From the NCBI GenBank assembly GCA_018806915.1, contig JAGKQI010000061.1, positions 434,001-498,000 on the forward strand: a stretch of 64,000 nt of DNA, in the 5' to 3' direction. The notes below the pieces were generated by a model. That model did not search any database and was not told the origin of the DNA. It was given only the letters and a program-made list of their open reading frames with translations. The DNA comes from Phytophthora colocasiae. Lineage: Eukaryota; Oomycota; Peronosporomycetes; Peronosporales; Peronosporaceae. Numbering within the stretch: the first letter of the stretch is position 1; each line of letters opens with the position of its first letter. The position numbers and the translations under genes are program-made. Positions 4,523 through 50,257 of the stretch are shown piece by piece.

Positions 4523-6288
4523 TCGTGTAGTCTACTATCAATCGCGTCAGCTGAAGCCAGCTGAGCGTAACTACCCCGTGCATGACAAGGAGCTCCTTGC
4601 TATGAAGTATGCACTCGCAAAGTTCCGAGCGTATCTACTTGGGAGTAGACCGTTCGTGGTCTATACAGACCACACATCATTGCGGACGGCGAATAAGTCG
4701 CCGCACATCTCGCAACGTATGGCGAGATGGTTGTCCTTCTTCACGGAGTACATCTTCCGGGTGGAGTACAAACCCGGAAGACTCAATGTAGTGGCCGACG
4801 CGTTATCGCGTCGACCTGACTATGCGGAGACGGTCGACGCCAACGCTGTTGGCGTCGTGAGGACAAGTGTGCCGTCGTCAACGTTGGTTGACGACGTGAA
4901 GAACGCGTATGCAAGGGATGCAGACGCGAAGGGGCTGCTGGAGTTCCTCGCAGCACCTTCCGACGTGCCACGTCGGAAGCTAACCCCTCATCTTCGAGCT
5001 CGTGTACACCGCTATCGTGTACACGAAGGCCTACTGTTGTACAGTGCAGTAGACGACAATGCGGATCGCATTGTCGTTCCGAATGATCATAACCTCCGGT
5101 TGAGGATCATGTTCGAGTATCACGATGCCCCCACGGCAGGGCATCCGGGTCGTGAGAAGACATACACTCTTCTCACGCGTGACTTCTACTGGCACCACCA
5201 GTACAAGTGGGTGCGCAAGTACGTACGTGCTTGCGAGGTTTGTCAACGCGTGAAGCCTGCGCAGTTCTCGCAGGCTCCTCTTCAATCACTACCGACTCCG
5301 TCGGAGTGTTGGCAGTCCATGTCCATGGACTTTGTCTTCGGTCTTCCGCCTGACAGCAAGCGGAAGACGGGCATCGTTGTCTTTGTGGACAGATTCAGCA
5401 AGATGGTTCATCTTGCTGCCGTCCCGGCTTCTGTTACAGCCGCGCAGACTGCGCGACTGATTGTTGACATGGTGTTCAAACACCATGGCATGCCGCTCAA
5501 CATTGTGTCGGACCGTGATCCACGCTTCACAGCGCGGTTCTGGCAAGAAGTGTTTACACTTCTTGGTTCACAATTATCAATGTCGACTGCGGATCATCCG
5601 CAGACGGACGGACAGACCGAACGTGTCAACCGCGTACTGGGTGACACGCTGAAGAGCTACGCTCACTCGTTCCCGCATTGGAGCGAGTGCTTGCCGATGG
5701 CAGAGTTTGCCATCAACAACTCGGTGCATGCCTCGACAGGGCATACACCGTTCTACGTGAACGCCATGAGGCATCCACGATTGCCGAGCATGCTCGGCGG
5801 GGTAGCTTCCTCCTTAAGTGGGGGAGGATCTACGGTTGCGTCTGAACAACCGCAGAATGCAACTGATAGCAGCACACTATCAGCTGCGGTGACGCGTGCG
5901 ACGTCTCGTTCGAGCAGGAACGAGCGCGCGATGTCTGTGCCGGGCACAGACATGAGAGATGATAGCGAGCAGGCAGGGCCTGCTGCTGACAAGGGCGACA
6001 AGCTGAAAGGATTCAGCTCGGGTGCGCTAGACTTTGCCCAGCGAAGACAAGCCGTCATACGGTTTGTCCAGGATGCTATCGCAGCTTCTGTCGATCGACA
6101 GAAGCTGAACGCTGATAATGTTGGTAGGGGCAACATAAATGAATTCAAAGTGGATTCATTAGTTTTGTTAGCTACACTAAACCTGCCTAAACATGCAGTG
6201 TCTGACTTTAGAGCAAGCTTGCTTGCTCCAAGATTCATTGGGCCATTCAAAGTACTTGAACGGCACGGCAACGCGTACCGGCTGGACA
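4458..6288 (+). pseudogene. A1 pol, RNase H and integrase part, interrupted by element D
   Basis: RNase H keeps catalytic-type residues: CDASDFAIG, the Glu of HDKELLAMKYAL, and YTDH. Integrase follows with an HHCC zinc finger (H..H, then CEVCQ) and the DDE core: MDF, VSDRDPRF and the Glu of DGQTERVNR. The frame is open to 6288, where D is inserted in the GPY/F-like C-terminal region. The continuation is at 23821. Coding sequence here is packed with perfect inverted repeats, including a 26-bp palindrome at 6082-6107. Confidence 0.9.
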
Positions 6289-7359
6289 TACCTGTCGCGA
6301 AGTCGGTGCAACTTTTACCGCGGTGCAGGGGCGTACAGTGAACCTGAAAGTGTGACTACCGGTAGTAATACCAGAGTCGCACAGCAAGGTGGGCGTGTGT
6401 TACCTTGTGCTGTCCTCGTAGGTTCGTTGTCTTGGTAATGAGACCCTCGCCGGGGTCGTGAGAGTGTTGATGAGAGTGAGGGTTCCTTGCGTAGGCCGTC
6501 GGATGTCCTTCTGGTCCTCACAGGAGCGCTTGAGAGTCGAACGTTTTCCGGTGAACACTTGTGTACACCAGAGATTTCTGAAAGCAAAAGAGAAATTAAT
6601 ACAATGGGAAGTCCAGTAATTAGACTTCCGAGATAACCGCAATATAGAGTTCCGATATACAAATATGTAGCTGCTCTTATTCTTTCCTGGCCCTTGAGCA
6701 GTGGGCTAGTTCTCCAGGTCAACTAGGAAATGTTCACCAGACACCTGGTCTGTCTGGTATTCCCGTAACTTTCATGCACCACCCTCTAATATATAGAGGG
6801 AAAATAAACCAATACACTATCAGTTATATAACAGTCTACCGAGCGTCTTGAGAGCGACTGTCTAGCTCCCAAAACCTGTCCAAACGTGCAATATGAAATG
6901 GGCTACCGCTAGAGACAAGACAAACGACCCAACTAGTAAATGGAATAGGTGGGTCCTCTCAGGTCTCTACGTTACGCTGATCTCCACCTAAAGGCGCTTG
7001 ATAGGTGAGAGATCACACGACTCAAAGCTTTGTCGTGGCCTTACACTTCCGAAGAACCGACGAATCGACCTTGGGGTTGTAACGCAAATTTAACTCGGGG
7101 GTACCGATCAAATTGAACTCTGGTTATCTATCTCGTATCTCTCTGTCTTCTGTCTTCCATATTCTCATATACACTTGGTCTCAGTATAACTCAGGGATTT
7201 TCACTCGGGCTCACTATGGTAGTCGATGCTGCAGATCTTGTCGAGTCGACACTTAATGATGTCATTACAGGGATGAGCGGGTTGCGTTTCACTTGATTGC
7301 GTGAGGTCGTGTTGGGTACACTTGGTTTCAGTATGGGGTGGACTTCAGAGTGTCAGAGT

Positions 7360-7660
7360 CTGGTATCCTGTTCATCAGGGTCTGGAATCATGTGTGTCGG
7401 AGACATGTTCATCGGAACCATGTACTCCGGAATCATGTACATCAGAGTCGTAATACCAGAGTCGTGACACTTGAGTCTGTTCATCGGAGTCTTGTACGTT
7501 GGAGTCTGTTCATCGGAAACTGGTAAATGTCTGGAATATTGCTTGTATAAGCCGGACACATCAGACTTGTTTACCAGAATCATGTTCATCAGACTCATGT
7601 ACGTCGGACTTCATGTACGTCGGACTTCATGTACGTCGGACTCATGTACGTCAGACTTCA
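7360..7660. repeat. Degenerate 10-mer array in the D LTR
   Basis: About eleven copies of a motif close to GTWCRYCRGA in 300 bp (for example GTTCATCGGA, GTACATCAGA, GTACGTCGGA), spaced roughly 15-30 bp. The same array is at about 23010-23295 in the other LTR. The motif also recurs through the D genes on both strands. Confidence 0.8.
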
Positions 7661-8031
7661 TGGTGTGATATCAGAGTTTCCATGCGTGATACCAGAAATC
7701 CATGAATTTTTTTAGGGTGCGGAGCACGTATGCTACAACGCACGAAGTCCAATTTGGGATATGCGCGGGGTGCGCTACGTCCGGTGCGCGATACTTGGTA
7801 TCTTGTGGGTATAACTGTATTCCTTGAACCATCATCGTCACACAGGACGGCAACGGGATGAGGTCTCTCAGAGATACATTCTTCTGAGAGACTTTCTGCC
7901 AACCTTTAGGCACTCATCGTCGGGGAAAGTCCGGTGATCAGACTGAGTGTTGTTGTCTCTCGGAGTTTGTGCACTTTTCCGAGGAACACTTCTGATCTCT
8001 TGGGCCCCTTTGCAGTACAGGTGAAGGTTAA

Positions 8032-8040
8032 TATATAAAG
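8032..8040 (+). promoter_or_regulatory. TATA box candidate for the D antisense ORF
   Basis: TATATAAAG on the plus strand, 200 bp before the antisense ATG at 8241 and inside the 3' LTR. The same box is at 23667-23675 in the other LTR. It points against the direction of gag-pol, so an antisense LTR promoter is plausible. TATA boxes are not the main oomycete promoter type, so this is tentative. Confidence 0.4.
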
Positions 8041-8240
8041 CAGTTTTCTTCCACAGATCCATTATTGTCGCACGGGACATAACCTCGTCCCACATCACCC
8101 TTTCTCCCACAATCCATTATATGTCCAATCACATCACAGCGAAACGTCCATATCCACTCGGAAAATCGTAATTAGCAACGTGTCAACCGCCCCTCCTGGT
8201 CATAATTCGTCAGTGCGGAACTTTCTCCAAACTGAGCATC

Positions 8241-11200
8241 ATGGCCAGGCCAGTACGTCAGAGGTCCCGTGAACATAGTGTAGCTGTGACGCTCTCAAAA
8301 CTTCCGGGATTTCAGAATCTCTGGTGTCCTGTCGCTCAGTCTGATTCCATCAGACTCAGAAATAGCCAACTGTCGTATCCCACAAACGGCCACATCCCGA
8401 TTTCCTTTCTGACACACAAGTCAGAAGAAGATCCTGCAACCATGGGTTCTCCATTGGCTCCTACTAGTGGCAACGACTCGGGCACTGGGCCCGCTTCGGC
8501 ATCCACGGCATCGCGAGGTGATGACGGCGGCAATGCCGCGTCATCTGGAGGCAGCTTTAGCGCCCCAGCCTCACAGTCGAGCGCGTCCGCCGCTCCGAAG
8601 CAGGGCGTTGATGCTGCTGACGGCGATGGGCACGTGAACGTGCCGGACACATCTATGGCTTCTGCTTCTGCGAGTCTCTCTTCTGGCGTCGCAGCTCCAC
8701 TCTCTAGAGGACCGCACATCCTTTCCACTACCGAGGTGGATGATCTATTTGGGCCTGGACAACAACCGCTAGACGAAGATAAGTCTGACGTCCCTTCCAA
8801 CTGGGTGGACCCTGAGCCACGACCTGAGGGACAGCCATTTCTGGTTGGTGTTCCGGCGCTCGCCGAGGACTTCCGTGTGGGCAACCACATCGCGAACATC
8901 TATGGCGGACCCGGTGTTCTGGTGGGCCTTGAAGAGTTCACGTCGGCGGACATCTCGGAGCTTGAGCGTGTTATCCCTGACTTCACTGAAAGTCAGATGC
9001 TCGTTCCTCACGTGGATAGCCGTGACCGCCAGAACCTTGAAGCGCATATGGGGTCCGTCGATGTCCATCGGGAGTTGGCGTCAATCCTCCTGCACCTCCC
9101 TCATCAGCGTCTCGCTGAGCGGGTGTACAAGACATCCGGCTATCTGAAGCAGATGGCCGGCGCTCACCGTCGGCTTCGACTTCAAGTTGAGTCCCAGGGC
9201 AACACATTGGTGGACACGGCCGCTATCCAGAACGAGTCTGAAGATCTCAAGCGTCAGTGGGTCTTCAATTGCCAGTATTGGCGTCATGAAGTGCTGGACG
9301 CCCGGCGTACTGCTGGTGAGATTGAAGATCGCGTGAATGCGGAGTCCAAGAGCCTCGCGTCGCACTATCAGGACCAGATAGATGCCCTGGAGACCGAGAA
9401 GTCGGCCTTGGAAGAACGCCTGGAAGACTCTCGAGCGGAGGTTCGACTGCTGAAGGCACGCCCCACGACCACAGCCACAGACTCCTGGGGTTTCCTGGAG
9501 TACTTGTTTGAACACGGGGAGTTGAATGGCAGTTGGGTGCGTCTTCGGGAGCTTCTGGTGAACTTCCAAGAGGGCAAGGCACCGCCTAAAGACTGGGACA
9601 CCATCATCAATGTGACGGCAATGGATCAGCGTAAGGCGGAAATTCCTGACTTTTCCAAGCGTCTGGCGAGAATTCGGTTCGATCAAGCTGCGGAGGCCAA
9701 GAAATCAGCCAAAGTGCTGGATCTGACAGGTGCTGGCAGTGGTGTGAAGGTCTCCGGTGAACATGCGGGTGGCCCCGAGAAATCAGGCACTCGCCCGGTG
9801 AACAAGTCTGGGTCGCCCACCAGGTCGCCCAAATCTTCCGGATCTCCACCACCCAAGCCTAACCGGCCGTCTGGGAAACATCGGGTTCGTGTTCCTCAGG
9901 ATCGCCCCAAGAATTACACGCCTGGTATCGATTCAGTGCGTCCGGCGAACGCCAAGTCTCCGGTGTCCAAGGACGCAGTTCACACCACGTTACCGGCTGG
10001 AGTCGTCTGGGAAGAAGTTCGTCCGGACTTGCGCTTGGCTCTGCTCGCCGGCATTTCTTACGAGACAGCGATGAAGTGGCTACGCACGGACAAGCCCGCC
10101 CACAGCCTGTTCACGGGGCGCCCCTTGGTAAAAATGCTAGTGAGCATGATGTACTGGCGCAAGCTGAATCAGACCCCGTGGACTTCGTACGTCCCAGAGA
10201 CGTATTACAAGATGTCTGAGGAGGAACTGCGCCGTCTTCAGAAGAACGATGTGGAGCCACCGGTCTGGGAGGCACTGGACGCTCACGTCCCGTATCCCAT
10301 CAGCGAACCTGAGTCCACAGAGGATGACCCTCAGAAGGACCCGGACTTCAAGGAGTCTGGTGAACAAGAATCTGCGTCTAGCGACAGTGGTTCTGACGAC
10401 GAAAAGTCGAGCGGCAACAGCGATGACTCTGACGACGATGAGTCTGATGATCATTCGCACGCCGGCAACAAGCGTCCACGGGACTACGAGTCCAGCGATT
10501 CAGACGACTCGGGTCCGATAATCCCCACCAAGAAATCCAAGCGGGGTAGTGTACACGAGGCATCTCGATCCAAGTCAGGCAGTCAGAAGTCCGGTGGCAC
10601 CTCCACGTCAAGTCCCAAGAGCAAGAAGTCCGGTGGTTCGCCCAAGTCAAGTTCCAAGGACAAGAAGTCTCAAGACTCCAAGTCGTCTAAGAGTTCTTCG
10701 GGCAAGCGACCTTCTGGTAAACTCCGGAAGTCAAGTCTGGTGTCCAAGTCGTACAAGTCGCTGACACCGAAGGAGCTGCTGACAATCGAGGCCCCGGACA
10801 CACATTGTTCTTCGTGGCTGTACTACGGCATTCCGGTCCAGCCGACGAGTGACACCAAGACATCCATCGGGCAGACTCCCGGGTTCCCAGACTTCGAGCC
10901 CCACAGACACAGTCTGGCACGCCTTAAGAAACGCTGGAACTCCAAGAAGTACCAAGATTTGCTGGACGAAGTGCCAGCTCCCTGGGAGGTCATGTACCAG
11001 AACCGCCGGACCGAGTTATATTTTCACCGGCGTGAAGACCTCTGTCCTTTGGTTCAGGCGGACATCGAAGAACTCGCGTCTCTCATGCGCAAGCACGCCC
11101 AAGCGCTGTGGGAACGCACTCACTGGGTGATCATGGACCCCGACGAGGACCTGCTGTCCGGTGAACAGCACAAGGAACGTGGGCTCCGACGTGCATCTTT

Positions 11201-11525
11201 ACTGCGCCAATATCGAGGGACAGTATCCAAGATTCTGAAGCACAAGGATTTCCCGGAGACGCTCATGTTCGAGCCCGGTATCTGGAAGGTCCCGGACAAA
11301 TATTGCCCATGGATCTGGCAGGACCCACGTGCACGTGACATCGGAGGTCCCAAGTGCCTGAGCTTGCGCAAGCAACTCGAAGCTATCGACTCAGCGGAAC
11401 CGGCGCGCACGCAGTGGGCCACAGCGTCTGCCGACAAGGACTGGATGCAATACGTGCCATCCGACCTCCGGAAAGAAGCTCTGACGCCCGCTGAACGCGC
11501 CGACAATCCTGTCTCTCTGAAGTAA
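8241..11525 (+). CDS. Antisense accessory ORF of element D (1094 aa, unknown function)
   Basis: Intact 1094-aa ORF, ATG 56 bp inside the 3' LTR, transcribed against gag-pol. Residues 1-180 are Ser/Ala/Gly-rich; about 310-405 are a charged coiled coil; about 590-690 a Trp-rich folded-looking stretch; about 694-766 an acidic Ser/Asp tract; about 766-843 a Lys/Ser-rich basic tract with NLS-like KKSKRG; 845-1094 a second compact part with many Trp/Arg. No enzyme motif recognised. The layout suggests a nuclear, nucleic-acid or chromatin-bound protein. Elements A and B have an ORF in the same place. Known parallels are antisense ORFs of plant Tat/Grande elements and antisense LTR genes of retroviruses; homology to either is not shown. 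Confidence 0.8.
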   Translation: MARPVRQRSREHSVAVTLSKLPGFQNLWCPVAQSDSIRLRNSQLSYPTNGHIPISFLTHKSEEDPATMGSPLAPTSGNDSGTGPASASTASRGDDGGNAASSGGSFSAPASQSSASAAPKQGVDAADGDGHVNVPDTSMASASASLSSGVAAPLSRGPHILSTTEVDDLFGPGQQPLDEDKSDVPSNWVDPEPRPEGQPFLVGVPALAEDFRVGNHIANIYGGPGVLVGLEEFTSADISELERVIPDFTESQMLVPHVDSRDRQNLEAHMGSVDVHRELASILLHLPHQRLAERVYKTSGYLKQMAGAHRRLRLQVESQGNTLVDTAAIQNESEDLKRQWVFNCQYWRHEVLDARRTAGEIEDRVNAESKSLASHYQDQIDALETEKSALEERLEDSRAEVRLLKARPTTTATDSWGFLEYLFEHGELNGSWVRLRELLVNFQEGKAPPKDWDTIINVTAMDQRKAEIPDFSKRLARIRFDQAAEAKKSAKVLDLTGAGSGVKVSGEHAGGPEKSGTRPVNKSGSPTRSPKSSGSPPPKPNRPSGKHRVRVPQDRPKNYTPGIDSVRPANAKSPVSKDAVHTTLPAGVVWEEVRPDLRLALLAGISYETAMKWLRTDKPAHSLFTGRPLVKMLVSMMYWRKLNQTPWTSYVPETYYKMSEEELRRLQKNDVEPPVWEALDAHVPYPISEPESTEDDPQKDPDFKESGEQESASSDSGSDDEKSSGNSDDSDDDESDDHSHAGNKRPRDYESSDSDDSGPIIPTKKSKRGSVHEASRSKSGSQKSGGTSTSSPKSKKSGGSPKSSSKDKKSQDSKSSKSSSGKRPSGKLRKSSLVSKSYKSLTPKELLTIEAPDTHCSSWLYYGIPVQPTSDTKTSIGQTPGFPDFEPHRHSLARLKKRWNSKKYQDLLDEVPAPWEVMYQNRRTELYFHRREDLCPLVQADIEELASLMRKHAQALWERTHWVIMDPDEDLLSGEQHKERGLRRASLLRQYRGTVSKILKHKDFPETLMFEPGIWKVPDKYCPWIWQDPRARDIGGPKCLSLRKQLEAIDSAEPARTQWATASADKDWMQYVPSDLRKEALTPAERADNPVSLK

Positions 11526-11911
11526 GTACGCCAGAGGTCTGGTGTACTCTTCGCGACATCTCCGGGGAACTACACTTCTTCTTCCAGAACAACTTAGTCG
11601 TCTGCATATCGTAGCGTAGTAACAATTCCAAATATAGTTCCCCGACGACCTTTCTCCTTTAACATCCTCACATGTCGTTCAGTAATCTTCTTCTCATAGC
11701 ATCATCATAATCCACTTCGTAAAATTCCATCATACACACACAACCACAAAATCATCTCCATACAAATTCACATAACAATCACCATCTCTGGGAGTCACGT
11801 ATCCCCGAAATCACATTTCCGAAAGACATGTCTCTCAGACACCTCATCTCTGAAATACATCGTCTGGTGAACAGTGATGTTCACCAGAGTTTTCAGAATA
11901 GGTTTTAGAGT
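11526..11911. other. Convergent spacer between antisense ORF and pol of D
   Basis: 386 bp without a gene. It contains a 10-bp inverted repeat, TCTGGTGAAC (11863-11872) and GTTCACCAGA (11879-11888), with a 6-nt loop, 24 bp from the pol stop codon. It may serve as a shared 3'-end signal for the two converging transcripts. Confidence 0.5.
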
Positions 11912-13219
11912 TTAAACTCTGGGGTGATCGTCTCCAGCTTGCATTGCCTGGAAACGAGCTCGCGCTCGTGCACTCTGATTGAACTCATATAGCAAAGCGC
12001 CACAGTTCAGCTTTGACAAGGGTAGCCACTCTGTCTCGTCGTACCCCTTCCACTTGACCAGGTATTCGCGAAGTCTCTTGGAGGTCCTGGTACGTTTGCT
12101 CCACCGAGTGTCTAGTATATTTTCCACTTCGTATTCATTGTTCTCGGTGTCGGGCTCCCAACTGTCTTCTGGTAGCAGTGCTGCATCAAAGTCATCATCC
12201 TCATGGACATCGAGTTCCACAGTCGGTCTTCTGGGAAACAAGGCTCTCGGCTTCAGGCGACTTATATGCACCCAAGGGTTCACCCGATACCCGGTGTCCT
12301 CGACCTTCAGTTTCACACGAAAATCATCCAACATCTCTTCAATCCGGAAAGGACCATGCCACATGTGTGCGAGCTTCCGACTCAACCCCGTTTGTACCTT
12401 GGGGATGTATAGCCACACGGCATCACCGACGGCAAATCCGGACTTCAGACGTTCCGACAACTCCTTCCAATTTCGGGTCTGTTCTTCAGAACGCTCCCGC
12501 TTGGCCTTCTTCTGAAGTTCTTCAGCACAGGCTTGAGCGTAGCTGTAATCTCGCTGCATCTTCCGACGCCACTCATAAGCAGTGCGCTCTTGTAAACCAG
12601 AAGGCTTTGGACCAAGCATCGCGGACACAGTCCCGTGAGCATCCCATCCGTGCACCAGAAAGAAAGGTGTTTCCAGACGGGTCGCATCAAAGGAAGTGTT
12701 CAACGCGAACATCAGACGTTCGGCGTGGTCATCCCAGTCACTTTGGTCAGCTTCAGCGATGTAGGCCTTGATGGCACGCACGACCGTCTGAACAGACCGT
12801 TCTTGTTGGCCGTTCGCCTGGGGACGGTATGCCAGAGTCGCCCGCTGTCTGCTTCCCAGGAGATCCCGGAAACACCTGAACACTTCACTCATGAACCGAG
12901 GGTCCTGATCATGGCGTATCAGTGAACTAGCTCCGAAGTTCCGGAAGACACGTTCCTCGTAGGCCTCAGCGACATCTTGAGCCGTAGTAATACTCATAGG
13001 CTTGCACATCACATATCCTGAGAACATGTCTTGGAACAACAACAGGAACGTGTTGCCTCTGGCGGACTTTGGCATGTGCGTCACGAAATCCATGGACACT
13101 ACTTCAAAAGGTCGACTGGGCTCGATGTTGCCGGGCGACGGTCCAGGATTCGGGGGACGCCCCTTGCCACTTGCACAGTCCATACACTCCTTGGCGAACC
13201 TCTCCACATCAGCGTACAA
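11912..13219 (-). CDS. D pol: integrase core and chromodomain
   Basis: 435-aa frame. It begins inside the zinc finger (CMDC). The catalytic triad is D44 (MDFV), D104 (RHDQDP) and E140 (GQQERS), with D-35-E spacing. A GPY/F-like region with LAHMWHGPFRI follows. Residues about 340-410 form a chromodomain (EYEVENILD ... EYLVKWKGYDETEW), expected to target insertion to marked chromatin. It is one frame off the upstream RNase H frame: a small indel near 13217 separates FYWI from LYADV. The frameshift may be real or a base-calling error, since the rest is intact. Confidence 0.9.
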   Translation of the reverse strand: MYADVERFAKECMDCASGKGRPPNPGPSPGNIEPSRPFEVVSMDFVTHMPKSARGNTFLLLFQDMFSGYVMCKPMSITTAQDVAEAYEERVFRNFGASSLIRHDQDPRFMSEVFRCFRDLLGSRQRATLAYRPQANGQQERSVQTVVRAIKAYIAEADQSDWDDHAERLMFALNTSFDATRLETPFFLVHGWDAHGTVSAMLGPKPSGLQERTAYEWRRKMQRDYSYAQACAEELQKKAKRERSEEQTRNWKELSERLKSGFAVGDAVWLYIPKVQTGLSRKLAHMWHGPFRIEEMLDDFRVKLKVEDTGYRVNPWVHISRLKPRALFPRRPTVELDVHEDDDFDAALLPEDSWEPDTENNEYEVENILDTRWSKRTRTSKRLREYLVKWKGYDETEWLPLSKLNCGALLYEFNQSARARARFQAMQAGDDHPRV

Positions 13220-14447
13220 TCCAGTAGAACTCGGAGCTCAGCTTCTCGAACGTACGTTTGATTCCCTGGTGAGCACCCTGGTAATCCCCATGAGCATAAT
13301 GCAACATATCAGCATGCAAGTCTCTGGGGACCACAAGTCGGAGCTCATCAACCATGTCTCTCGGACGTTCCCTGGTAGCACGGCTGAGGCGGTACAAACC
13401 GTCTCTGGAATCCAAGATAAAGTCATCGGCGATCCTGGCAAGCTTCCTTACTCGGGGTCGTGGTAGATCTCCCACGTCACCCTTAAGGAACTTGATGAGT
13501 TCTGCCAGATGAACATCTTGAGTCTGGTGAGCTTTGATCCTCCGCCAGCGTTCTTCCTGAAACTCCAGTGGGCCCATAGGTTCACGAGCCTCTACGTCAT
13601 CTGGTAGGTTTGCCTCTTCTTGATTGCGTGCACGAGTGATGGCAACAAGCACCTTGGCAGCATGAGGCAGGGGCGCAGACTCTGGCCCTGGGTCATCCAT
13701 CTCCGGTGTACAATCATGTTCACCAGAGGTCTGGTGAACATCGTCCGGGGCTTCAGAAGACACCCCTTCGGGAGGCTTCATCAACTTCTCTGGGATCTTG
13801 GACACCAGTTTCAGATGAGTCAGTTCGTCAGGGTCTTGGACCTGCCAGGACTCGCCAAGAACAAGAGTCTTGGACGTCAAATAGTCCGCTGCTTGATTGA
13901 ACTCACGCTTCACGTGCACTAGCTTCAGAGACTGGAACTTGATTTTCAGAGACTCAAACTCGGCCAATTTCCGCTGCAGGTTCGGCTGATTACAATTGAT
14001 CAGTCCTTGAGCTTGCTGTATAGCGATACTAGAGTCTCCGACAACCACCAAATCTCGGATGCCACGTTCCAAAGCTAACTTCAATCCATTGATCAGACCA
14101 CAGTACTCTGAGTCATTCACAGTGACATCTTTCAGAGCGAACCCTTGGGCTTCCAGGATATTCCACCCCGGGAGCTCCCAGAGCACACATCCGCAGCTTC
14201 CCAGGCGAGTGGATGTCTTGGCGGCACCATCAAAACTTAGAACACAACCTCGGTAATCAGCCTCTAGCATCTCCACGCTAATGGGTGCTGGAGGTTTGGC
14301 TCGCCCCTTGACGGGGATGAGGTTTTCAGAGACCTCATCGAGGTGTTCACGGGGTGTGATGCCCGCTCCAAGAATAGCCGGGAGACCATCTTCATCTCGC
14401 TGGATCCTGCGAATCTCCAAGTTCCATGTGACAACTTCAATCCCCAC
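13209..14447 (-). CDS. D pol: archaeal-type RNase H and integrase N-terminus
   Basis: 412-aa frame. Residues about 90-220 form a second RNase H of archaeal/plant-like type: SFDGAAK (D), NDSEYCGL (E), VVGDSSIAI (D) and VKREFNQAADYL (D), so the four-acid site is present. The integrase HHCC start (H...H before FYW) follows near the end. Joined to the RT frame by a 1-nt loss in a G run near 14450: four Gs where five keep the frame. This domain is presumably the working RNase H, because the older one upstream has lost catalytic residues. Confidence 0.88.
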   Translation of the reverse strand: MGIEVVTWNLEIRRIQRDEDGLPAILGAGITPREHLDEVSENLIPVKGRAKPPAPISVEMLEADYRGCVLSFDGAAKTSTRLGSCGCVLWELPGWNILEAQGFALKDVTVNDSEYCGLINGLKLALERGIRDLVVVGDSSIAIQQAQGLINCNQPNLQRKLAEFESLKIKFQSLKLVHVKREFNQAADYLTSKTLVLGESWQVQDPDELTHLKLVSKIPEKLMKPPEGVSSEAPDDVHQTSGEHDCTPEMDDPGPESAPLPHAAKVLVAITRARNQEEANLPDDVEAREPMGPLEFQEERWRRIKAHQTQDVHLAELIKFLKGDVGDLPRPRVRKLARIADDFILDSRDGLYRLSRATRERPRDMVDELRLVVPRDLHADMLHYAHGDYQGAHQGIKRTFEKLSSEFYWIVR

Positions 14448-17400
14448 TTCACATTCCGACCATCAGCCGAGCTGGATGACAGGAGCCATTTCAACACCGA
14501 ATGTCTGGTGTACACCGTGATCACGGGACTCGTGTTTATCAGAGCCCGAAAGTTCTCCAGAACTCTGAGAATCGCGATGACCTCCTTCTCTGCGATGTGA
14601 TACCGGAGTTCTGCCTCATTCAACACACGTCCAGTGAACCGTACGGGGTGTATCACTCCATCGTACTCCTGTCCCAAGACGGCTGAAGCAGCCCACGGGT
14701 TCGCATGAGGTATAATAACGAAAGGCCTGGTGCGATCTGGGTGTCTGAGGAGCGGTGTCGAGACAATCTTGCGCTTCACAATCTCAAAGGCTTCCTTAGC
14801 TCGAGCCAAATCTCGACCAGCACGAATCTGTTCATCAGACAACTCGTAGAGCACAGCAGCGATCACCGGTAAGTCTTCGATAAACTTGTTGTAATAATTC
14901 AGACTTCCCATGAAACTCTGTACTCCCTTGAGTGTCGACGGAAACGGCAATTCTTCCACTCCCTTGACGATCTTCGGCGTGGCTCTCAGTCCTTCAGCAC
15001 TGATCTCATGCGACAGATAAGGAATCGTCAGCTTCCCGAACTCGCTCTTGGGCAAGCTCACAGAAATGTTCCAGTATCTGAGTCTGAAAAGCAAGGCGTT
15101 CAGGTCTTCACAAAGTTGATCCCAGGTGGGCGCCCCATGAGCAATGTCGTCAATGTAGGAACTTCGACCGAGTACCGGTCCCATGAAGGACGGGACTGGG
15201 ATGTTCCTCTGAAAGACAGTCATTTGGTCGGTGAGCACCGGAACCTCTGGCATGTGTTCATCAGAGTTCTGAAGTTGTTCACCAGACATCAGACCATGTA
15301 CGTCAGAGTTCTGGGGTTCTAACTTCAGGAATTCCAGCACATCGGGGTCAACCTCAGCTTCCTCTTCAGGTGACAATCGCACGAACCCCCACAGGCAGTT
15401 ATCCAGCATAGCCTGGTACACCAGAGGGGCGTTCTTCAGACCGAAGGGCATTCTTACCCACTGGAAATGTCCAAATGGGCAGATGAACGCTGAGATCAGC
15501 CTTGCACGCTCCGTCATTCGAATAGCCCAAAAACCACTCGCCATATCCAGACTCATAAACCACAGTGCTGCCTCAAACCCAATCAACAGATCGTCTATCA
15601 GGGGCAACGGATAACGCGACAACTGGATAAAACCATTCACCACTCGATAATCAATACACATGCGTATGTCCACACCATTCTTCTTGAGGACAATCACAAT
15701 TGGTGATGCCCAAGGCGAAGTCGAGTACTCGATGAGTCCGGTCTCCAGGAGCTTCTTCAGTAGTTCGTACACTTTGATCATCAGGTGAGGGGCGACGGAC
15801 CTCGGACGTTGGGCAACAGGTTTAGCGTCTCCCACGTCCAAGTCACAGACCACGCCCCTTGCCGGGGCAGGTGCGGCGTTGCCGTCTCCCAGAAAGATTT
15901 TCCGATGATACTTCAGGATGTCCCTGAGTTTCTGCTCCATCTCCGGCGTCGTTTTCCCGGGTACTCCGACGTCAGCCTTGTCGATATCGCATTCGGGAGT
16001 CAGATCTTCCAATTCGGGTAGCATAACCAGTTGGTCACGTAATTGAGAGAGTAGCTCCGTTCCTTCCCGTATGTAGACACCGGGTTCCAGATCCAATTCC
16101 TCATTCGTGACTCGCATGCACCGCTCGTACTCGGCTCGGAGCTTTTCCACAGGGGTGCCTGGCATACTCTGGATTGGGATGTCCCATGAACAGTCTGTCG
16201 GATCCATATCTCCCATGAACAGTTCACCAGAAACACTCAGGGTGACTTCATCCTCGACCATGTTACTCGGAATTCCAGACGTGGTTCCGGAGTCTTTCGG
16301 AGTCGTTTCTTCTGATGGCAATTCCAGATCTCCGGTGTCCACAGCGGTATCTCGGGTCTCCTCTTCTCCGACACCCACCCAGTCATCTGTCTGCGTAGCC
16401 ACATCCAAAGCGAAACGAACTCGTTTTGTTCGTGGGACCGAAGTAGGCCTCACAAACTGTACTCGAGCATTGTCCAGCCTTGGGCGCTGTAAGATCTTAG
16501 TTGGCCACGGGTATACCGGGTGATCCACACACGGAGGTTGAGGCATCAGATCCTCCAAGTCAGCTTCGGCCTTCAGGCGTCTCTTCGTCTCTGGTGACGG
16601 AGTGTTCTCCAGAATCAAAACTTCCCAGTCACGATAGGCTGCAGAGCCTGGTCGTACAAAGCGACCATGTCGTGGGAAAAACCCATACTCCACAATCCTT
16701 GCAACGTCAGAAAATTCATTCACCCACGTATTCTTGTCAGAAATGTTCACCACGCGCACCACCACAGGCCATGACCGGGCTGCATAAATCAGCTGAGTCA
16801 CCCAACGGTCTCCACGTCCCGCCCACACGACTTCTCGTTGTGGGTTCGTCGGACCATAATCAATGCGAACAACAAATTCTTCACCAGGTCTCAGAAGTAC
16901 AGCTTCACTTGGTCTGATGGACCTGTTCCTGCCGATATGATCACCGGGCTCCCAGATGCACATCATCACCACGACTTCGTCTGGCATAGATACCAGTCCC
17001 TCACGGACGCTGATCCTCAGACCAGCAGCGAACATGAATCCCATTCCCAATAGCACGTTTATACCTTCGCCGATATTCGCAACCCAGACATCAATAATGT
17101 AAACCACTCTCGGTCCGAGAGTCAGCTTGATCTCAGCACTGGCACCAATGTACGTCGGAACACCTCCCATCCCAGACACCCTTGTTTGTTTGTGTGACTT
17201 GAGCCTGAGTCCGAGCTTACGCGCAAAGTCGTAACTCAGGATGTTGATAGTCGCACCGGTGTCCAGGAGAATCTTGGTCCGATGATCATTGACAGCGCCA
17301 TGCACCATGACCACATCACGCTTTGCAGGATCAGGGTAGTGATCCTCCCACCAGCCATAACATTCCCCGTCTTTCAGACGAAACTGGATTGTGTCGTCCG

Positions 17401-17634
17401 GAGGCGGTTCATTGTCTCTCGGAAAGTCCGGTGAACAGTCTCTCGGAAAGTCCGATGAACTGTCTCTCAGACGCGGAATTTCTGAAGACATGGCTGATTC
17501 TTGAGCTAAAGCGGTCATGCAATGTTGATTTTTAGGTTGGGTTGTTTTCAGCTCCGGTCCTACGTACACTAGAACACATAACTCTGGGGGTGTGCCTTGC
17601 CCGGCGCGTTTCGGATCCCCATCCGACGGGCTTG
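14264..17634 (-). CDS. D pol: protease, reverse transcriptase and degenerate first RNase H
   Basis: Frame is open from the gag frameshift site (no ATG needed) to 14264. Retropepsin active site is LLDTGATIN, near residue 102 counted from 17569. RT has MASGFWAIRM, the PFGLKNAP fingers/palm motif and catalytic YIDD near residue 803. The first RNase H keeps the fold pattern (AEKEVIAIL), but the first catalytic Asp is replaced (HAN instead of DAS) and TDH reads TRH, so it should be inactive, a connection-like domain. It ends out of frame after the single-base loss near 14450. Confidence 0.9.
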
Positions 17635-17644
17635 CTAGTTTAAC
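17599..17644 (-). other. -1 frameshift signal between gag and pol of D
   Basis: Slippery heptamer G TTA AAC (17644-17638) followed at once by the gag stop TAG (17637-17635). Downstream is a nested structure: outer stem GCCCG/CGGGC (17627-17631 with 17599-17603) enclosing a hairpin TCGGAT-gggg-ATCCGA (17611-17626). Pol is open in the -1 frame directly from here. GUUAAAC is an established viral slippery site. Element B has the same heptamer, stop and nested-stem plan. Confidence 0.82.
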
Positions 17645-20244
17645 TGTTTCCCAGAGTCAGCCTCGTCACCCAGGAGTTTCTCCAGTAGGTGATCCGGCAG
17701 GTCATTCAGTGTACCTTGACGGGCTAGTTTCTTGAGGGATTCCAGGGTCTTGATGTCCTCGCATGGTCTCCCAGAGTGCACCTTTCCGCAAACCTCACAC
17801 GGCGGTACTCGGCACATCCTGCTCGGGTGACCTTTCTCCTGACATCTGTCGCAGACAATGTCTCTCCAGCAGCTCTCCTCCGAATGACCTGAGCGGCGAC
17901 ACTTCTCGCAGAACTTGTTCCAGTAGTCAGGGTTATCGCGACGTGTCTGCTGGAAGTCTTGACCTGAGGATCCTCGGGGAGACTGGGGCGGCGGTCGCCA
18001 TCCCATGTTGCCCATGACCCGATAAACTTCGTTTGTCAGAGCCTGAGTCCAATCAGCACCGCCAGGCGCCTGAGAGGCAGATTGTACACCAGACGAAGAT
18101 TGTACGCCAGACATCTCGCGATCGTGCTCTGACGACGAAGCTCTGGCATCCTTCTCTTGAGTTCTGGTATCCACATCGACATCGTCAGAGGCATTCGGGT
18201 CTGCTTCTCGGGCGACGTAAGTCTTCCCCATACGCTTCGGCTTAAACTGTCCGCGTGGGAGATTGTCCGCTCGGAAATCCCGATGTCTGGTGGTCGTAGT
18301 GTCTTGATCAGCAGTTCGCCAGACATCTTCGTCCTGTTGCAGAGCATATTCCAAGTCCGAGATACTCCTGAACTTCCGGCCTTGTAACGCGATCTTCAGA
18401 CGCTCGTCCTTCAGCTTGGTGATGTACCTCAGGACATGTTTCTCCAGGCGTCTGGAGGATTTTCTGAAGTCCACCTCAGCTTTTCCGGCGGCCGAGTTCA
18501 GGCGATAGAAGAAGTCCAACGGAGTCTCGGAACTCTTCATTTCCATCGTGAAATATCTCTCGGAGTATGATGACCGGGCCTTGCAATAGCGCCTGCGAAA
18601 CTCCGATGATAATTCCTTCCAGTCACGGGAAACGCTCTTCGGAAGCTGGTTGAACCAATCTCTGGCAGACAACGGAAGCTTCAGCTTGAGTTCCTGTATG
18701 CGGGTCTTGTTCGTCCACGCTCCCTGAGATGCCATGTTCACGAAGCGCTCCCACCAGTGGACCCGTTCTCGTAATGTCGCTCGGGGATCAAATTCTCCGA
18801 TGATACTTGAGTTTATGAAGGGCCTCATGGTCAGCAAAGTCGCTCCAGCTTGTCCATGGGACGCAGAAGTCAGGTTAACAACCTCCGGAGGGTCTAAGTC
18901 ATCAGACGACGAATCACTTGAGTCCGAGCTTGAGTCACTTGAGCTTCCACCAGGATCGGGATCATTCCTGCGTCTTCCAGGCCTACGAGGAGCGTCCCGG
19001 CCATCTTCAGAGCGTCTTTCACTCGGTTTCCGGTGTCCATCGCGCCTGGGAGTCGCTGGGCGCCTTCCTTCAGTCTTGACCTCGGTCAGGGGAGCCGCTT
19101 GAGCCGTCTGGGTCGTCGTAGCGGCCGCGGTGGCCGCGCCATGCCTTCCAGCCTTCGCGCGCTTGGTGTCGGTCGATCTCCGTAAGGGAAGAGGCGTATG
19201 GAAGGCCTCCGTCGTTTTAATGGGTGTAACCCTACCCCTGCTGGCGACTCCTTCTGATCCCCTAACCCCAGGTGTGCAATCTCCCGTATCACGACTGTTC
19301 ACCAGAAGTCCGGTTGCCGGTTTAGGGTCATGTTCACCGGAAATCCGACTTGAAGTTGTTACTTCAGGGTGGGCGACCCCTTGAACTTGGGACAATGTTG
19401 CACGAAGGTTCCTCAATTCTGCGGCCTGGAAACGCTGCATGTTCTGGGAACTTTCTCGCTCCCTGTCGCGCTCCGACTCCACGTCGTGCACCCGCTGTCG
19501 TAAGGTCTCCATTTGCGAAATCCAGTCACGTTTCAGCTCGTCTGCCCAACGCGCACGTTCGGCTTCGGCCTCGGCTTCCCGTTGTTTCCAGCGATCTGCA
19601 AACTCGGTCTCCAGACGCTGTACGTCGGAAAACTGTTCACCAGAAACTTGTTCGTCGGACACCTGTCTCTCAGACGATTTCGAATGATATTTGAGCTTGG
19701 ACTCTGACGCTTGACTCCGACGTTCTTCCAAGTCATCCGCGCGTCTCTGGGCTTCCAGTCTGGCGCTCTCAGACTCGAGTAGTCGGTCGGTAAGTGTCTG
19801 GATCTGCTGGCGCGTATCAAGTTCTCGTTGTTCACGTCGACGTTCACGCTCCATGGATTCCAGACGTTCTCTGGCCAGAAATTCCTTCTGCTCCTGTTCC
19901 ATCCGACGCTGCCATTCCTGTTGCTGCCGCATAGCGTTCAGTTCGATCTGCGCTGGGCCTGATCTCTGGGAACTTCGCGTGTGGCTTGACGCAACGGAAC
20001 TCAGGCGTCTGGAAGACACTTTCTGGTGATCCTCGCTCTTCAGACTCTGGTGCCTGCTTTGGTGGCTTCTCCCACGACTCGAGACGGACGATGCTGGAGC
20101 TTCCGGCGTCCGGTGAACAGAATCTTGCACAGAATTTCTGGTAGACAACTGTGTCTCGGACTTCACTTCTGGAAACTCCGCCTTCTCTTCCAACATCTCG
20201 AAGTCTTCAGGCTCCGACTTCACCGGCATCAGCGTTCGTGTCAC
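17635..20244 (-). CDS. D gag with three zinc knuckles (up to 869 aa)
   Basis: Large Gag. The first ATG is at 20229; the frame opens at GTG 20244. Residues about 80-290 are charged coiled coil; about 480-680 hold the Retrotrans_gag capsid domain (WWERFVNMA, LPLSARDWFNQL, ERYFTMEMK). Near the C-terminus are three zinc knuckles, CEKC...H...C, CDRC...H...C and CEVC...H...C, about residues 780-825. It ends at the TAG of the frameshift site. The coiled coil contains SDEQ/SGEQ-type peptides encoded by the element's dispersed 10-mer. The 149-aa ORF upstream overlaps the opening GTG by four bases (GTGA), so reinitiation or a disrupted longer N-terminus is possible. Confidence 0.88.
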   Translation of the reverse strand: MTRTLMPVKSEPEDFEMLEEKAEFPEVKSETQLSTRNSVQDSVHRTPEAPASSVSSRGRSHQSRHQSLKSEDHQKVSSRRLSSVASSHTRSSQRSGPAQIELNAMRQQQEWQRRMEQEQKEFLARERLESMERERRREQRELDTRQQIQTLTDRLLESESARLEAQRRADDLEERRSQASESKLKYHSKSSERQVSDEQVSGEQFSDVQRLETEFADRWKQREAEAEAERARWADELKRDWISQMETLRQRVHDVESERDRERESSQNMQRFQAAELRNLRATLSQVQGVAHPEVTTSSRISGEHDPKPATGLLVNSRDTGDCTPGVRGSEGVASRGRVTPIKTTEAFHTPLPLRRSTDTKRAKAGRHGAATAAATTTQTAQAAPLTEVKTEGRRPATPRRDGHRKPSERRSEDGRDAPRRPGRRRNDPDPGGSSSDSSSDSSDSSSDDLDPPEVVNLTSASHGQAGATLLTMRPFINSSIIGEFDPRATLRERVHWWERFVNMASQGAWTNKTRIQELKLKLPLSARDWFNQLPKSVSRDWKELSSEFRRRYCKARSSYSERYFTMEMKSSETPLDFFYRLNSAAGKAEVDFRKSSRRLEKHVLRYITKLKDERLKIALQGRKFRSISDLEYALQQDEDVWRTADQDTTTTRHRDFRADNLPRGQFKPKRMGKTYVAREADPNASDDVDVDTRTQEKDARASSSEHDREMSGVQSSSGVQSASQAPGGADWTQALTNEVYRVMGNMGWRPPPQSPRGSSGQDFQQTRRDNPDYWNKFCEKCRRSGHSEESCWRDIVCDRCQEKGHPSRMCRVPPCEVCGKVHSGRPCEDIKTLESLKKLARQGTLNDLPDHLLEKLLGDEADSGKQLN

Positions 20245-20690
20245 GTGGACTCTCCGGCGAGCATTCCTCCGGCTTCAGCACCTTGGGCGATCATCGCCAG
20301 ACCTCCGACGGACAACGGCATATGTTCAGACGCCCCTCGACTCATAGACATCAGCGATGAGTCTGTGGAACTTCCACGAGAGGTCTGAAGTCCCGACGAG
20401 TGGTCATCAGACGTACGCGAGGTCCCGATGACACTTGGCACCGGCGCATCAGTCGTCAGGGAACTACCTCGATCTTCAGACATTGGCACACCAGACTCCA
20501 AGCGAGTGCTATCAGAGTGACTCTCGTATACCGGCAGTGAACTCAGCGACGGCGTCGACAGTGCAGATGGTGTCGACGAGACTTGCGGGCGTGGCGGACC
20601 ATGTTGCAGGCGCTTGGACTGCGGCGGTTCTCCACTGCTGGACCCGTCGGAACTATGTGTGACTCTGAGTCCGGTCACCCGGAGTCTCAT
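20241..20690 (-). CDS. D Ser/Thr-rich ORF just upstream of gag (149 aa)
   Basis: 149 aa from ATG at 20690; no recognised domain. Rich in Ser, Thr and Gly, probably disordered. It shares its frame with ORF1, separated by two TGA codons, and overlaps the opening of the gag frame by GTGA. It could be an independent small protein, the displaced N-terminus of Gag after a frameshift, or leftover ORF1 sequence. The close overlap argues against pure noncoding sequence. No sequence evidence selects among these. Confidence 0.5.
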   Translation of the reverse strand: MRLRVTGLRVTHSSDGSSSGEPPQSKRLQHGPPRPQVSSTPSALSTPSLSSLPVYESHSDSTRLESGVPMSEDRGSSLTTDAPVPSVIGTSRTSDDHSSGLQTSRGSSTDSSLMSMSRGASEHMPLSVGGLAMIAQGAEAGGMLAGEST

Positions 20691-20789
20691 AATCAGCTGT
20701 CGTCCTTGTACGTCAGCCTTCTCATCGCGTCATATACCATCGGCTTCGCCTTGACGTGCTTCGTTGCCTGCTTTTGTGTCTTTTGGGAG

Positions 20790-21851
20790 TCAATTAACTT
20801 GTGACCTGGCGGTCACAGTGGCCCACTCAACCAGTTCTTCAGCAAGTCGGCTCTGAAGCTCCGTCGCCACATTGCGCACTAGAGGTTCGAAGATAGCAGA
20901 CGCTTGGGTCTGAGACCACCTCGGTAGCAGGTTCTGGAACGCAAATCCTGCTTCATACAGCATCGTCTGAAGGACAGCGACGCATTCAGGTGCCGTCAGG
21001 GCATTCATCGAGATCTCGACGTACGACAAGTCTTGGATTAGGCCAAAACTATGGCGCCTCAAGCAGAACTCCGATATCCACATGTCTTCTGGAAATACTG
21101 AAGAACACCGCCACTTGATGTAGTCGCCCGTCGCTGCCGCAGCCTTCTGAAAGACATTTGCGTCAGGCTTCGCTGTTCGCCAGGCGTATTCGACGTTCGG
21201 CGGAACAATTCTTCCAGCGTCCATGTCCCTCCAGCGGCGGAACTCACGGCGTACGTACTTCAGGGCACGTTCTCCATCCAGCGAATCGGCCCTCCCAGAC
21301 TCATCAGACGGTGTCTTCAGAGAATCTTCGGACTTCATCGGCATGTCGTCAGACATCGTAGTGTCTTCGGACTTTGGAGTCTTCGAGACACGTTCATCAA
21401 CCAGTCCGGGTTCCGTCTTCACTTCCCCCACGGACTTCCCAGAAGCCGTCGACTCAGAACATAAGTCAATGACCTCCAGGGACTCAACCATGTCGGCGCC
21501 TCCCTCAGACGCCTCATCACCACCTTCACAGGCAGTGGCCACCTCGTCACCAGAAGCTTCAGCTTCGGACGGACCTTCCTCAGAACGTTGTTCGCCAGAC
21601 ACATCGGGTGTCTCTTGGGCTTCAGGCTCCGCAGCAGGCTGGTCTTCGACCGCCGGTTCCGTGACGTTCACCTCCTCGACTGCTTCCTTTTCACGTGCAG
21701 CCTTCCTCTTCTCGCGTGCCGCCTTCTGAACAGCATCCAAGTCGGGTTGTTCGTCAGGCGGAAGACCTTGAAGACGCTTCGACTGACGTGTCGCCATACT
21801 GCGACCACCGCGTCCCCGACGTCCTCCTCTTGTAGTTCCATGTGAAGCCAT
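20790..21851 (-). CDS. D ORF1, protein encoded before gag (353 aa)
   Basis: 353 aa, ATG at 21851, about 90 bp after the 5' LTR and its primer site. The N-terminus is basic and Gly/Arg-rich (GGRRGRGGRS, an RGG-like patch); residues 30-200 are acidic and disordered (Glu/Ser/Thr); the last 150 residues are compact, with aromatic and hydrophobic spacing (YAWRTAKPD, YIKWRC, MLYEAGFAFQ). Unknown family. An extra ORF before gag is known from plant Ogre-type elements; B has one too (338 codons) without obvious similarity. It may act in RNA binding or nuclear export. Function not shown. Confidence 0.72.
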   Translation of the reverse strand: MASHGTTRGGRRGRGGRSMATRQSKRLQGLPPDEQPDLDAVQKAAREKRKAAREKEAVEEVNVTEPAVEDQPAAEPEAQETPDVSGEQRSEEGPSEAEASGDEVATACEGGDEASEGGADMVESLEVIDLCSESTASGKSVGEVKTEPGLVDERVSKTPKSEDTTMSDDMPMKSEDSLKTPSDESGRADSLDGERALKYVRREFRRWRDMDAGRIVPPNVEYAWRTAKPDANVFQKAAAATGDYIKWRCSSVFPEDMWISEFCLRRHSFGLIQDLSYVEISMNALTAPECVAVLQTMLYEAGFAFQNLLPRWSQTQASAIFEPLVRNVATELQSRLAEELVEWATVTARSQVN

Positions 21852-21922
21852 CTTGAATATAGACGCTTGACAGAAACCCTCTTCTCAAACTCTCTTAGAT
21901 CCGGTGATATCACGATACCAAG

Positions 21923-21940
21923 ATCCGGGCACGCGCACCA
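21923..21940 (-). other. Primer binding site of D
   Basis: TGGTGCGCGTGCCCGGAT on the minus strand, 2 nt from the 5' LTR. The 18-nt length and TGG start fit a tRNA 3' end carrying CCA. The same 18 nt are present in both B copies (44629-44646 and 49228-49245). tRNA identity unknown. Confidence 0.82.
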
Positions 21941-21942
21941 GT

Positions 21943-23820
21943 TGTCGCGAAGTCGGTGCAACTTTTACCGCGGTGCAGGGGCGTACAGTGAACCTGAAAG
22001 TGTGACTACCGGTAGTAATACCAGAGTCGCACAGCAAGGTGGGCGTGTGTTACCTTGTGCTGTCCTCGTAGGTTCGTTGTCTTGGTAATGAGACCCTCGC
22101 CGGGGTCGTGAGAGTGTTGATGAGAGTGAGGGTTCCTTGCGTAGGCCGTCGGATGTCCTTCTGGTCCTCACAGGAGCGCTTGAGAGTCGAACGTTTTCCG
22201 GTGAACACTTGTGTACACCAGAGATTTCTGAAAGCAAAAGAGAAATTAATACAATGGGAAGTCCAGTAATTAGACTTCCGAGATAACCGCAATATAGAGT
22301 TCCGATATACAAATATGTAGCTGCTCTTATTCTTTCCTGGCCCTTGAGCAGTGGGCTAGTTCTCCAGGTCAACTAGGGAAATGTTCACCAGACACCTGGT
22401 CTGTCTGGTATTCCCGTAACTTTCGCGCACCACCCTCTAATATATAGAGGGAAAATAAACCAATACACTATCAGTTATATAACAGTCTACCGAGCGTCTT
22501 GAGAGCGACTGTCTAGCTCCCAAAACCTGTCCAAACGTGCAATATGAAATGGGCTACCGCTAGAGACAAGACAAACGACCCAACTAGTAAATGGAATAGG
22601 TGGGTCCTCTCAGGTCTCTACGTTACGCTGATCTCCACCTAAAGGCGCTTGATAGGTGAGAGATCACACGACTCAAAGCTTTGTCGTGGCCTTACACTTC
22701 CGAAGAACCGACGAATCGACCTTGGGGTTGTAACGCAAATTTAACTCGGGGGTACCGATCAAATTGAACTCTGGTTATCTATCTCGTATCTCTCTGTCTT
22801 CTGTCTTCCATATTCTCATATACACTTGGTCTCAGTATAACTCAGGGATTTTCACTCGGGCTCACTATGGTAGTCGATGCTGCAGATCTTGTCGAGTCGA
22901 CACTTAATGATGTCATTACAGGGATGAGCGGGTTGCGTTTCACTTGATTGCGTGAGGTCGTGTTGGGTACACTTGGTTTCAGTATGGGGTGGACTTCAGA
23001 GTGTCAGAGTCTGGTATCCTGTTCATCAGGGTCTGGAATCATGTGTGTCGGAGACATGTTCATCGGAACCATGTACTCCGGAATCATGTACATCAGAGTC
23101 GTAATACCAGAGTCGTGACACTTGAGTCTGTTCATCGGAGTCTTGTACGTTGGAGTCTGTTCATCGGAAACTGGTAAATGTCTGGAATATTGCTTGTATA
23201 AGCCGGACACATCAGACTTGTTTACCAGAATCATGTTCATCAGACTCATGTACGTCGGACTTCATGTACGTCGGACTCATGTACGTCAGACTTCATGGTG
23301 TGATATCAGAGTTTCCATGCGTGATACCAGAAATCCATGAATGTTTTTAGGGTGCGGAGCACGTATGCTACAACGCACGAAGTCCAATTTGGGATATGCG
23401 CGGGGTGCGCTACGTCCGGTGCGCGATACTTGGTATCTTGTGGGTATAACTGTATTCCTTGAACCATCATCGTCACACAGGACGGCAACGGGATGAGGTC
23501 TCTCAGAGATACATTCTTCTGAGAGACTTTCTGCCAACCTTTAGGCACTCATCGTCGGGGAAAGTCCGGTGATCAGACTGAGTGTTGTTGTCTCTCGGAG
23601 TTTGTGCACTTTTCCGAGGAACACTTCTGATCTCTTGGACCCCTTTGCAGTACAGGTGAAGGTTAATATATAAAGCAGTTTTCTTCCACAGATCCATTAT
23701 TGTCGCACGGGACATAACCTCGTCCCACATCTCCCTTTCTCCCACAATCCATTATATGTCCAATCACATCACAGCGAAACGTCCATATCCACTCGAAAAA
23801 TCGTAATTAGCAACGTGTCA
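21943..23820 (-). repeat. 5' LTR of element D
   Basis: 1878 bp, the partner of 6293-8185. Ends TGTCGCGA...GTGTCA on the plus strand; the flanking TACC at 23821 matches 6289-6292. Confidence 0.95.
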
Positions 23821-33445: not shown

Positions 33446-33548
33446 TTCGCCCTCAGCACATAAGCTGAGCTGCCGCAGCTCACTTCGGGTTTATTTCCAC
33501 ATTCACCACCTGGAAAACAAGTCGTTCAAGTACCACCACTCCCTTACG

Positions 33549-43615: not shown

Positions 43616-43630
43616 TTGAAAGTAGTCGTC

Positions 43631-50242: not shown

Positions 50243-50257
50243 GACGACTACTTTCAA

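Follow-up and report, generated by a model that had tools for sequence, protein, structure and literature searches.

Does a long open reading frame (ORF) lying on the strand opposite to gag-pol in an oomycete retrotransposon encode a protein on which selection acts? The question is raised by a 64,000 nt stretch of Phytophthora colocasiae DNA (assembly GCA_018806915.1, contig JAGKQI010000061.1, positions 434,001 to 498,000), here called the window and numbered from its first letter, in which three Gypsy families, designated D, B and A, each have one such frame between pol and the 3′ long terminal repeat (LTR). The original prediction described these frames as a convergent, LTR-driven accessory gene for a nuclear factor, and named a ratio of nonsynonymous to synonymous substitution rates (dN/dS) near 1, together with an absence of antisense transcripts, as the result that would count against it. 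Instead, the ratios are 0.15 for D, 0.19 for B and 0.39 for A, in agreement with a convergent protein-coding accessory gene; the antisense ORFs of all three families are protein-coding genes under purifying selection.

The D frame occupies 8241–11525 of the plus strand and contains 1094 codons without a stop, while each of the other five frames has 21 to 55 stops; in 300 base shuffles of this stretch, the longest open run in six frames averaged 160 codons and reached at most 288. The B frame (33549–36386, plus strand) is likewise intact where it had been placed, with 945 codons, although an ORF caller places its start further upstream, on a TTG (33408). For family A, the predicted position is right but the frame is not intact in the window: copy A2 (57332–58879, plus strand) has a stop at codon 203, and copy A1 (23893–25463, minus strand) is out of frame with its first stop at codon 108; intact copies are found elsewhere in the genome. 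The distance from LTR edge to antisense ATG, predicted as 55–105 bp, is 55 bp in D, 103 bp in B (LTR end at 33445) and 101 bp in A2 (LTR 56771–57230). All three frames converge on pol as anticipated, with 386 bp between the ORF ends in D, 353 bp in B and an overlap of about 60 bp in A.

Purifying selection on the antisense frames

Of the 42 scored copies of family D, 21 were sampled: the one in the window and 20 from the top of a list ranked by protein score, skipping one copy near the end of contig C69. The antisense frame is open to its end in 14 of these 21 copies and has an earlier stop in seven, and the 210 pairwise dN/dS values have a median of 0.147 (range 0.094–0.338). Changes present in two or more copies comprise 123 nonsynonymous, 290 synonymous and one stop, compared with 268, 134 and 13 expected when the same base changes are placed at random. 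Changes found in a single copy comprise 155, 153 and 7, compared with 202, 100 and 13. Relative to expectation, the nonsynonymous-to-synonymous ratio is thus 0.21 for shared changes and 0.50 for singletons, a difference that is expected if selection acts on the transposing lineages and inserted copies drift afterwards.

Shared variation peaks at the third antisense codon position from about 8741 to the end of the ORF, and does so weakly before that point; moreover, alignment gaps within the ORF are multiples of three. Among the five control frames over the same DNA, four have shared ratios of 2.0–3.0, and one minus-strand frame has 0.29 because its degenerate positions coincide; that frame has 34 stops. 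Constraint is strong at the C-terminus, where residues 851–1094 have a shared ratio of 0.10. For comparison, the corresponding ratio is 0.17 in the RVT_3 (second RNase H) part of pol and 0.03 in its integrase-chromodomain part, and the reverse transcriptase part has 18 nonsynonymous and 109 synonymous shared changes.

In family B, the window copy was compared with a copy chosen for its divergence (L050, rank 38 in the list), giving a dN of 0.077, a dS of 0.407 and a dN/dS of 0.19; a closer copy (L010) differs by a dN of 0.008 and a dS of 0.028. Family A was represented by 19 copies, namely 17 from 128 matches and the two in the window. Three of these (A1, L047 and L048) are out of frame and were set aside; the other 16, two of which contain a stop, have a median pairwise dN/dS of 0.387 (120 pairs). 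Their shared changes include 58 nonsynonymous ones where 74.5 are expected, a count as low in none of 500 simulations, and the constraint is strongest at residues 161–330 (as low in 1 of 500).

Several results weigh against reading these frames as accessory genes. In D, residues 68–150 are nearly unconstrained (ratio 0.87). In A, constraint is absent at residues 331–430 (10 nonsynonymous and 2 synonymous shared changes; 485 of 500 simulations as low) and borderline at residues 1–160 together with 431–495, leaving residues 161–330 as the only clear region, and singletons are near neutral (0.82; 78 of 500 simulations). Further, the copies were drawn from protein-ranked lists, which favour intact ones and may thereby lower the absolute dN/dS somewhat; this ranking has no bearing on the codon-position pattern.

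Elements that carry the gene

The layout recurs across the genome (92.5 Mb in 105 contigs). A convergent pol within 6 kb accompanies at least 31 of 42 D copies, mostly with the second RNase H at about 2351 bp; at least 26 of 46 B copies, mostly at about 2095 bp when B's own RVT_3 segment is the query; and at least 31 of 45 A copies, mostly with 653 bp to the integrase segment. For B and A, the pairing used pol matches on contigs that also hold antisense matches, covering 46 of 51 B and 45 of 128 A matches. Non-convergent arrangements number 0 of 42 for D and 2 of 45 for A among the pol matches listed; for B, they number 2 of 46 among the 150 best RVT_3 matches, which include no convergent B copy (0 of 46), and 1 of 46 with its own segment. 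Among the score-ranked antisense matches listed, 22 of 42 are free of stops in D, 34 of 51 in B and 99 of 128 in A; the A count refers to residues 204–515, and many of these matches lie in frames of about 552 codons.

A fourth family, E, emerges from a P. sojae relative of the D protein (P0005), which matches 25 further loci besides D at 41–43% identity. At least 15 of the 25 have a convergent D-like integrase at 764–971 bp, as judged by comparing positions by eye. The E integrase is 92–94% identical to that of D, whereas the C-terminal domains of the antisense proteins are 58–60% identical and their synonymous sites are saturated (pS 0.78). In one E copy, this domain is 87% identical to that of the P. 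palmivora protein P0003 and 60% identical to that of D, so that the antisense gene of E is nearer to another species' gene than to that of its sister family, while the integrases stay alike. Judging from these identities, the contrast could reflect strong constraint on the integrase or an exchange of antisense modules. Overall, this one oomycete genome has at least four families of elements with a genuine, selected antisense accessory gene.

The pol genes place these families in more than one lineage. In D, all on the minus strand, pol is divided into an ORF with integrase and chromodomain (11912–13219; chromodomain at about 11975–12133), one with the second RNase H and H2C2 (13209–14447), and one with protease, reverse transcriptase and RNase H (14264–17569). 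The B pol ORF (36740–40024, minus strand) has RNase H, RVT_3, H2C2, integrase and chromodomain; B also has a protease, and its reverse transcriptase spans a frame break and is unmatched in the Pfam scan. The RVT_3 matches have E-values of 1.6e-19 in D and 7.1e-13 in B, and the Pfam model alone is no proof of an archaeal-type enzyme. In A, the pol ORF (58818–61208, minus strand) has RNase H, H2C2 and integrase, and the domain search found neither RVT_3 nor a chromodomain.

Chronos LTR retrotransposons of Peronosporales and Pythiales are described as having two RNase H domains and an integrase with a chromodomain (Ustyantsev et al. 2017, PMC5348765). D and B share this layout, with the second RNase H and with the chromodomain after the integrase, while A lacks both. 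The main text of the Chronos paper contains neither 'antisense' nor 'opposite', and the passages covered here mention only ORF1 and ORF2 (PMC5348765). The antisense gene is therefore present in Chronos-type elements and in another Gypsy lineage, where it arose either independently or anciently.

Other features of these elements were noted in passing. D (6289–23824) is nested inside A1 and is flanked by a 4 bp direct repeat, TACC, at 6289–6292 and 23821–23824, its target-site repeat; its LTRs, both on the minus strand, are at 6293–8185 (3′, TG...CA) and 21943–23820 (5′). The second A copy (56771–64000) has the opposite orientation to A1, and the two B copies at 32071–46104 and 47770–56639 are mutually inverted, at 95–98% identity; together these are nested insertions. 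A 353-residue sense ORF of D (20790–21851) has no Pfam match and precedes an 869-residue ORF with two zinc-knuckle motifs. D and B have an identical primer-binding-site sequence by their 5′ LTRs (21920–21942 and 44610–44650) and so likely use the same tRNA primer, and the B LTR contains a 23 bp tandem repeat of varying copy number (32771–33015, 45339–45652 and 48233–48512). Elsewhere, RVT_3 matches on contigs C41, C79 and C83 form arrays with a period of about 7 kb or a multiple thereof; many lie in long open frames, and they are possibly clustered non-LTR elements. On contig C4 (56790–104102), nine RVT_3 matches with one TAG each make up a short array, at spacings from about 1.8 to 14 kb.

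Start region and predicted proteins

In D, a polypurine tract read from the sequence (8186–8197, minus strand) adjoins the 3′ LTR, and all 21 copies examined have an identical LTR-edge sequence at identical spacing to the antisense ATG. The first 67 codons are not clearly coding: they have 13 nonsynonymous and 2 synonymous singletons and 6 and 5 shared changes, respectively, and of five relatives, four start near D residue 60 and one near residue 49. In the same 21 copies, 48 sites per 500 bp vary at the LTR end by the antisense ORF (7741–8240), compared with 302–359 in the far part (6241–7240), where the outer bin takes in some flank and gaps; the low variation hints at a conserved regulatory stretch.

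An Initiator, whose most frequent form is TCATTCT, has been described near oomycete start sites (Roy et al. 2013, PMC3599244). With a looser pattern, TCAYTYY, the search found TCACTTC at 33480–33486 (plus strand), 69 bp upstream of the antisense ATG in B and also in L010, and TCATTTC at 57322–57328 (plus strand), 10 bp upstream of the antisense ATG in A and also in A1 and L012. Both lie beyond the LTR, between its edge and the ATG, and the A position implies a very short leader. At the density of the pattern in the window (3.8e-4 per base per strand), about 0.04 matches are expected per 110 bp.

The original prediction stated that the three proteins do not look alike and proposed a profile-profile comparison, which upholds the statement for A and contradicts it for D and B. 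In particular, the C-terminal domain of D (residues 851–1094; 10791–11522, plus strand), which is common to E, is partly common to B (residues 752–922; 35802–36314, plus strand). The two match at 1e-4 in BLASTP and at an E-value of 2e-4 in hhalign (47% probability, 151 columns). The B C-terminus scores above all 500 shuffles against D, P0003, P0005 and P0006 (z of 7.2–9.3); for the N-terminal half of D, the negative control, 385 of 500 shuffles score as high. On sequence comparison, D and B are homologous at the C-terminus. Homology of A to D or B was also considered; the two hhalign matches have E-values of 0.0083 (40 columns, 4.8% probability) and 0.1 (0.6% probability), which was taken as none.

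Large parts of the antisense proteins are predicted to be disordered, and the predicted features include basic patches, acidic tracts and coiled coils. D has a KRPR patch (residues 744–747; 10470–10481, plus strand) within an acidic, serine- and lysine-rich tract, invariant in all six aligned D-type proteins; B has a bipartite basic patch (residues 446–464; 34884–34940, plus strand), and A a similar bipartite-like one. AlphaFold2, run with six sequences for D and with P0016 and 46 others for A, predicts a long helix, likely a coiled coil, at D residues 326–405 (9216–9455, plus strand), with a predicted local distance difference test (pLDDT) of 73–86 only at residues 361–400 and the remaining model poor; it further suggests a coiled coil at A residues 445–514 and a helical core at 194–339. 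The KRPR-type patches are consistent with a nuclear location, and the D and A models with a coiled coil.

In hmmscan searches of Pfam (E up to 0.1 for D and B; up to 1 for an A copy, two D relatives and one B relative), no antisense protein scanned passes a curated cut-off, TRP28 (PF04195) and bZIP included, and sub-threshold matches are mostly to coiled-coil and zipper families (e.g. HALZ at 0.07 in P0003). PDB sequence profiles gave no match at E ≤ 0.1 for A2 and A1. An envelope-like third ORF is not indicated either: the orientation is antisense, and among seven antisense proteins the highest 19-residue hydropathy is 1.6, so that no membrane span is predicted. Relatives number five proteins for D (P. 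palmivora and P. sojae), one for B (P. citrophthora) and 485 matches for A, with 11 Phytophthora species named among the 120 listed; the closest among the matches listed are in P. citrophthora, P. oleae and P. palmivora. Viral contigs contain no A relative among 126 pattern matches.

Known parallels and possible functions

Antisense genes of this kind are known from other hosts. The layout called aORF-3R, antisense to gag-pol in the interval between pol and the 3′ LTR, is that of D, B and A, and is found in plant Tat elements (maize Grande gene23, rice RIRE2 and Silene Retand). The oomycete genes differ in host, in having no match to the TRP28 domain of Retand and, for D and B, in the chromodomain of their elements. 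The deltaretroviral genes HBZ and APH-2 are likewise antisense; HBZ is a bZIP protein, and the oomycete proteins have no bZIP match. No sequence relation to HBZ or APH-2 turned up, no direct comparison having been made. The products of these two genes, from human T-cell leukemia virus types 1 and 2, are nuclear (PMC11963269), and the deltaretroviral antisense promoter sits in the 3′ LTR (PMC7264820). The Grande product is also nuclear, transcribed from a promoter upstream of its gene (PMC7264820, citing others), and Retand belongs to a non-chromovirus lineage (PMC11963269). As in D and B, plant Tat elements have a second RNase H, and retroviruses have dual RNase H as well (PMC5348765). Outside plants, the Boty element of the fungi Botrytis and Sclerotinia has a 3′ antisense ORF (PMC7264820), likened here by description only. 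In agreement with the original prediction that no such gene had been described in oomycetes, none of the open-licence PMC titles and abstract starts listed reports an antisense ORF for oomycete or stramenopile LTR elements. As far as searched, the kind of gene is thus known from plants and fungi; its host, sequence and element type are new.

The tentatively preferred reading, held with a little less than even confidence, is that of a convergent gene for a nuclear coiled-coil accessory protein that acts on the chromatin of its own LTRs to favour expression. Transcription of the gene towards pol would begin at the edge of the 3′ LTR or just within it; the product would probably be nuclear and self-associating, and its action on the LTRs may favour element expression. 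Further points stand on the opposing side of this reading. The patches resembling nuclear localisation signals are short and common among basic disordered proteins. The structural models are poor (mean pLDDT of 36.4 for D and 50.5 for A) and useful for helices and coiled coils only, and Foldseek of the A model against the PDB gave 25 matches at E ≤ 10 and none at E ≤ 0.001. No Initiator-like match occurs in the 400 bp upstream of the ORF in any of the 21 D copies. The gene is also not tied to Chronos, because A has neither a second RNase H nor a chromodomain.

The same predicted features, basic patches and coiled coils, would suit a protein that serves integration, either bridging the integrase or pre-integration complex to chromatin or carrying the complex into the nucleus. 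The chromodomain on the D and B integrases fits this role, and a plant review proposes that such ORFs have a part in regulating retrotransposition and refers to the pre-integration complex entering the nucleus (PMC7264820). However, family A has no chromodomain and a separate antisense unit suggests expression independent of gag-pol, leaving an integration role possible but doubtful. It is unlikely that the protein suppresses host RNA silencing and so counters double-stranded RNA that convergent transcription would produce: the layout is convergent and small RNAs from both strands occur along the P. infestans Gypsy elements Pi-1a and Albatross (PMC3522703), but the Pfam scans recognised no RNA-binding domain.

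Three further explanations fare worse. A captured host gene carried by the elements is very improbable; gene sets of other Phytophthora list the relatives as hypothetical proteins, but those copies whose position could be established converge on pol, no Pfam match exceeds the family's cut-off, no PDB relative was found, and the 120 A matches listed are all from Phytophthora or unnamed. It is more improbable still that only the antisense RNA matters and the open frame is incidental. Non-coding antisense transcripts are known from other elements (PMC7264820), but the dN/dS of 0.15–0.39, the codon-position pattern, the in-frame gaps and the protein relatives in other species argue against it. Least credible of all is that the constraint stems from a gene on the sense strand, for instance an env-like ORF following pol. 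A 270-codon minus-strand ORF inside B (35514–36326) and the low-ratio minus frame over D point in that direction, but all three minus frames over D have 21–34 stops, the low-ratio frame having the most, and the highest hydropathy among nine sense ORFs is 1.67, within D pol.

A broader and rather doubtful proposal is that a nuclear antisense gene is standard in oomycete Chronos elements and re-arose in an unrelated Gypsy lineage, making these elements, with plant Tat and deltaretroviruses, repeated cases of a package that combines a second RNase H with a 3′ antisense nuclear regulator; the antisense gene would then be a fast-diverging or exchanged module, as between D and E.

Extra genes on the strand opposite to the usual ones have been reported mainly from plant elements. 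The present results add oomycete elements to those with 3′ antisense genes, and the selection measured indicates that the protein matters and not the RNA alone. They also add to the published convergence of oomycete Chronos and plant Tat elements in their second RNase H. Many copies per genome and annotated relatives elsewhere make the function of such genes testable by comparison, and the finding suggests that many Phytophthora 'hypothetical proteins' are retrotransposon accessory proteins.

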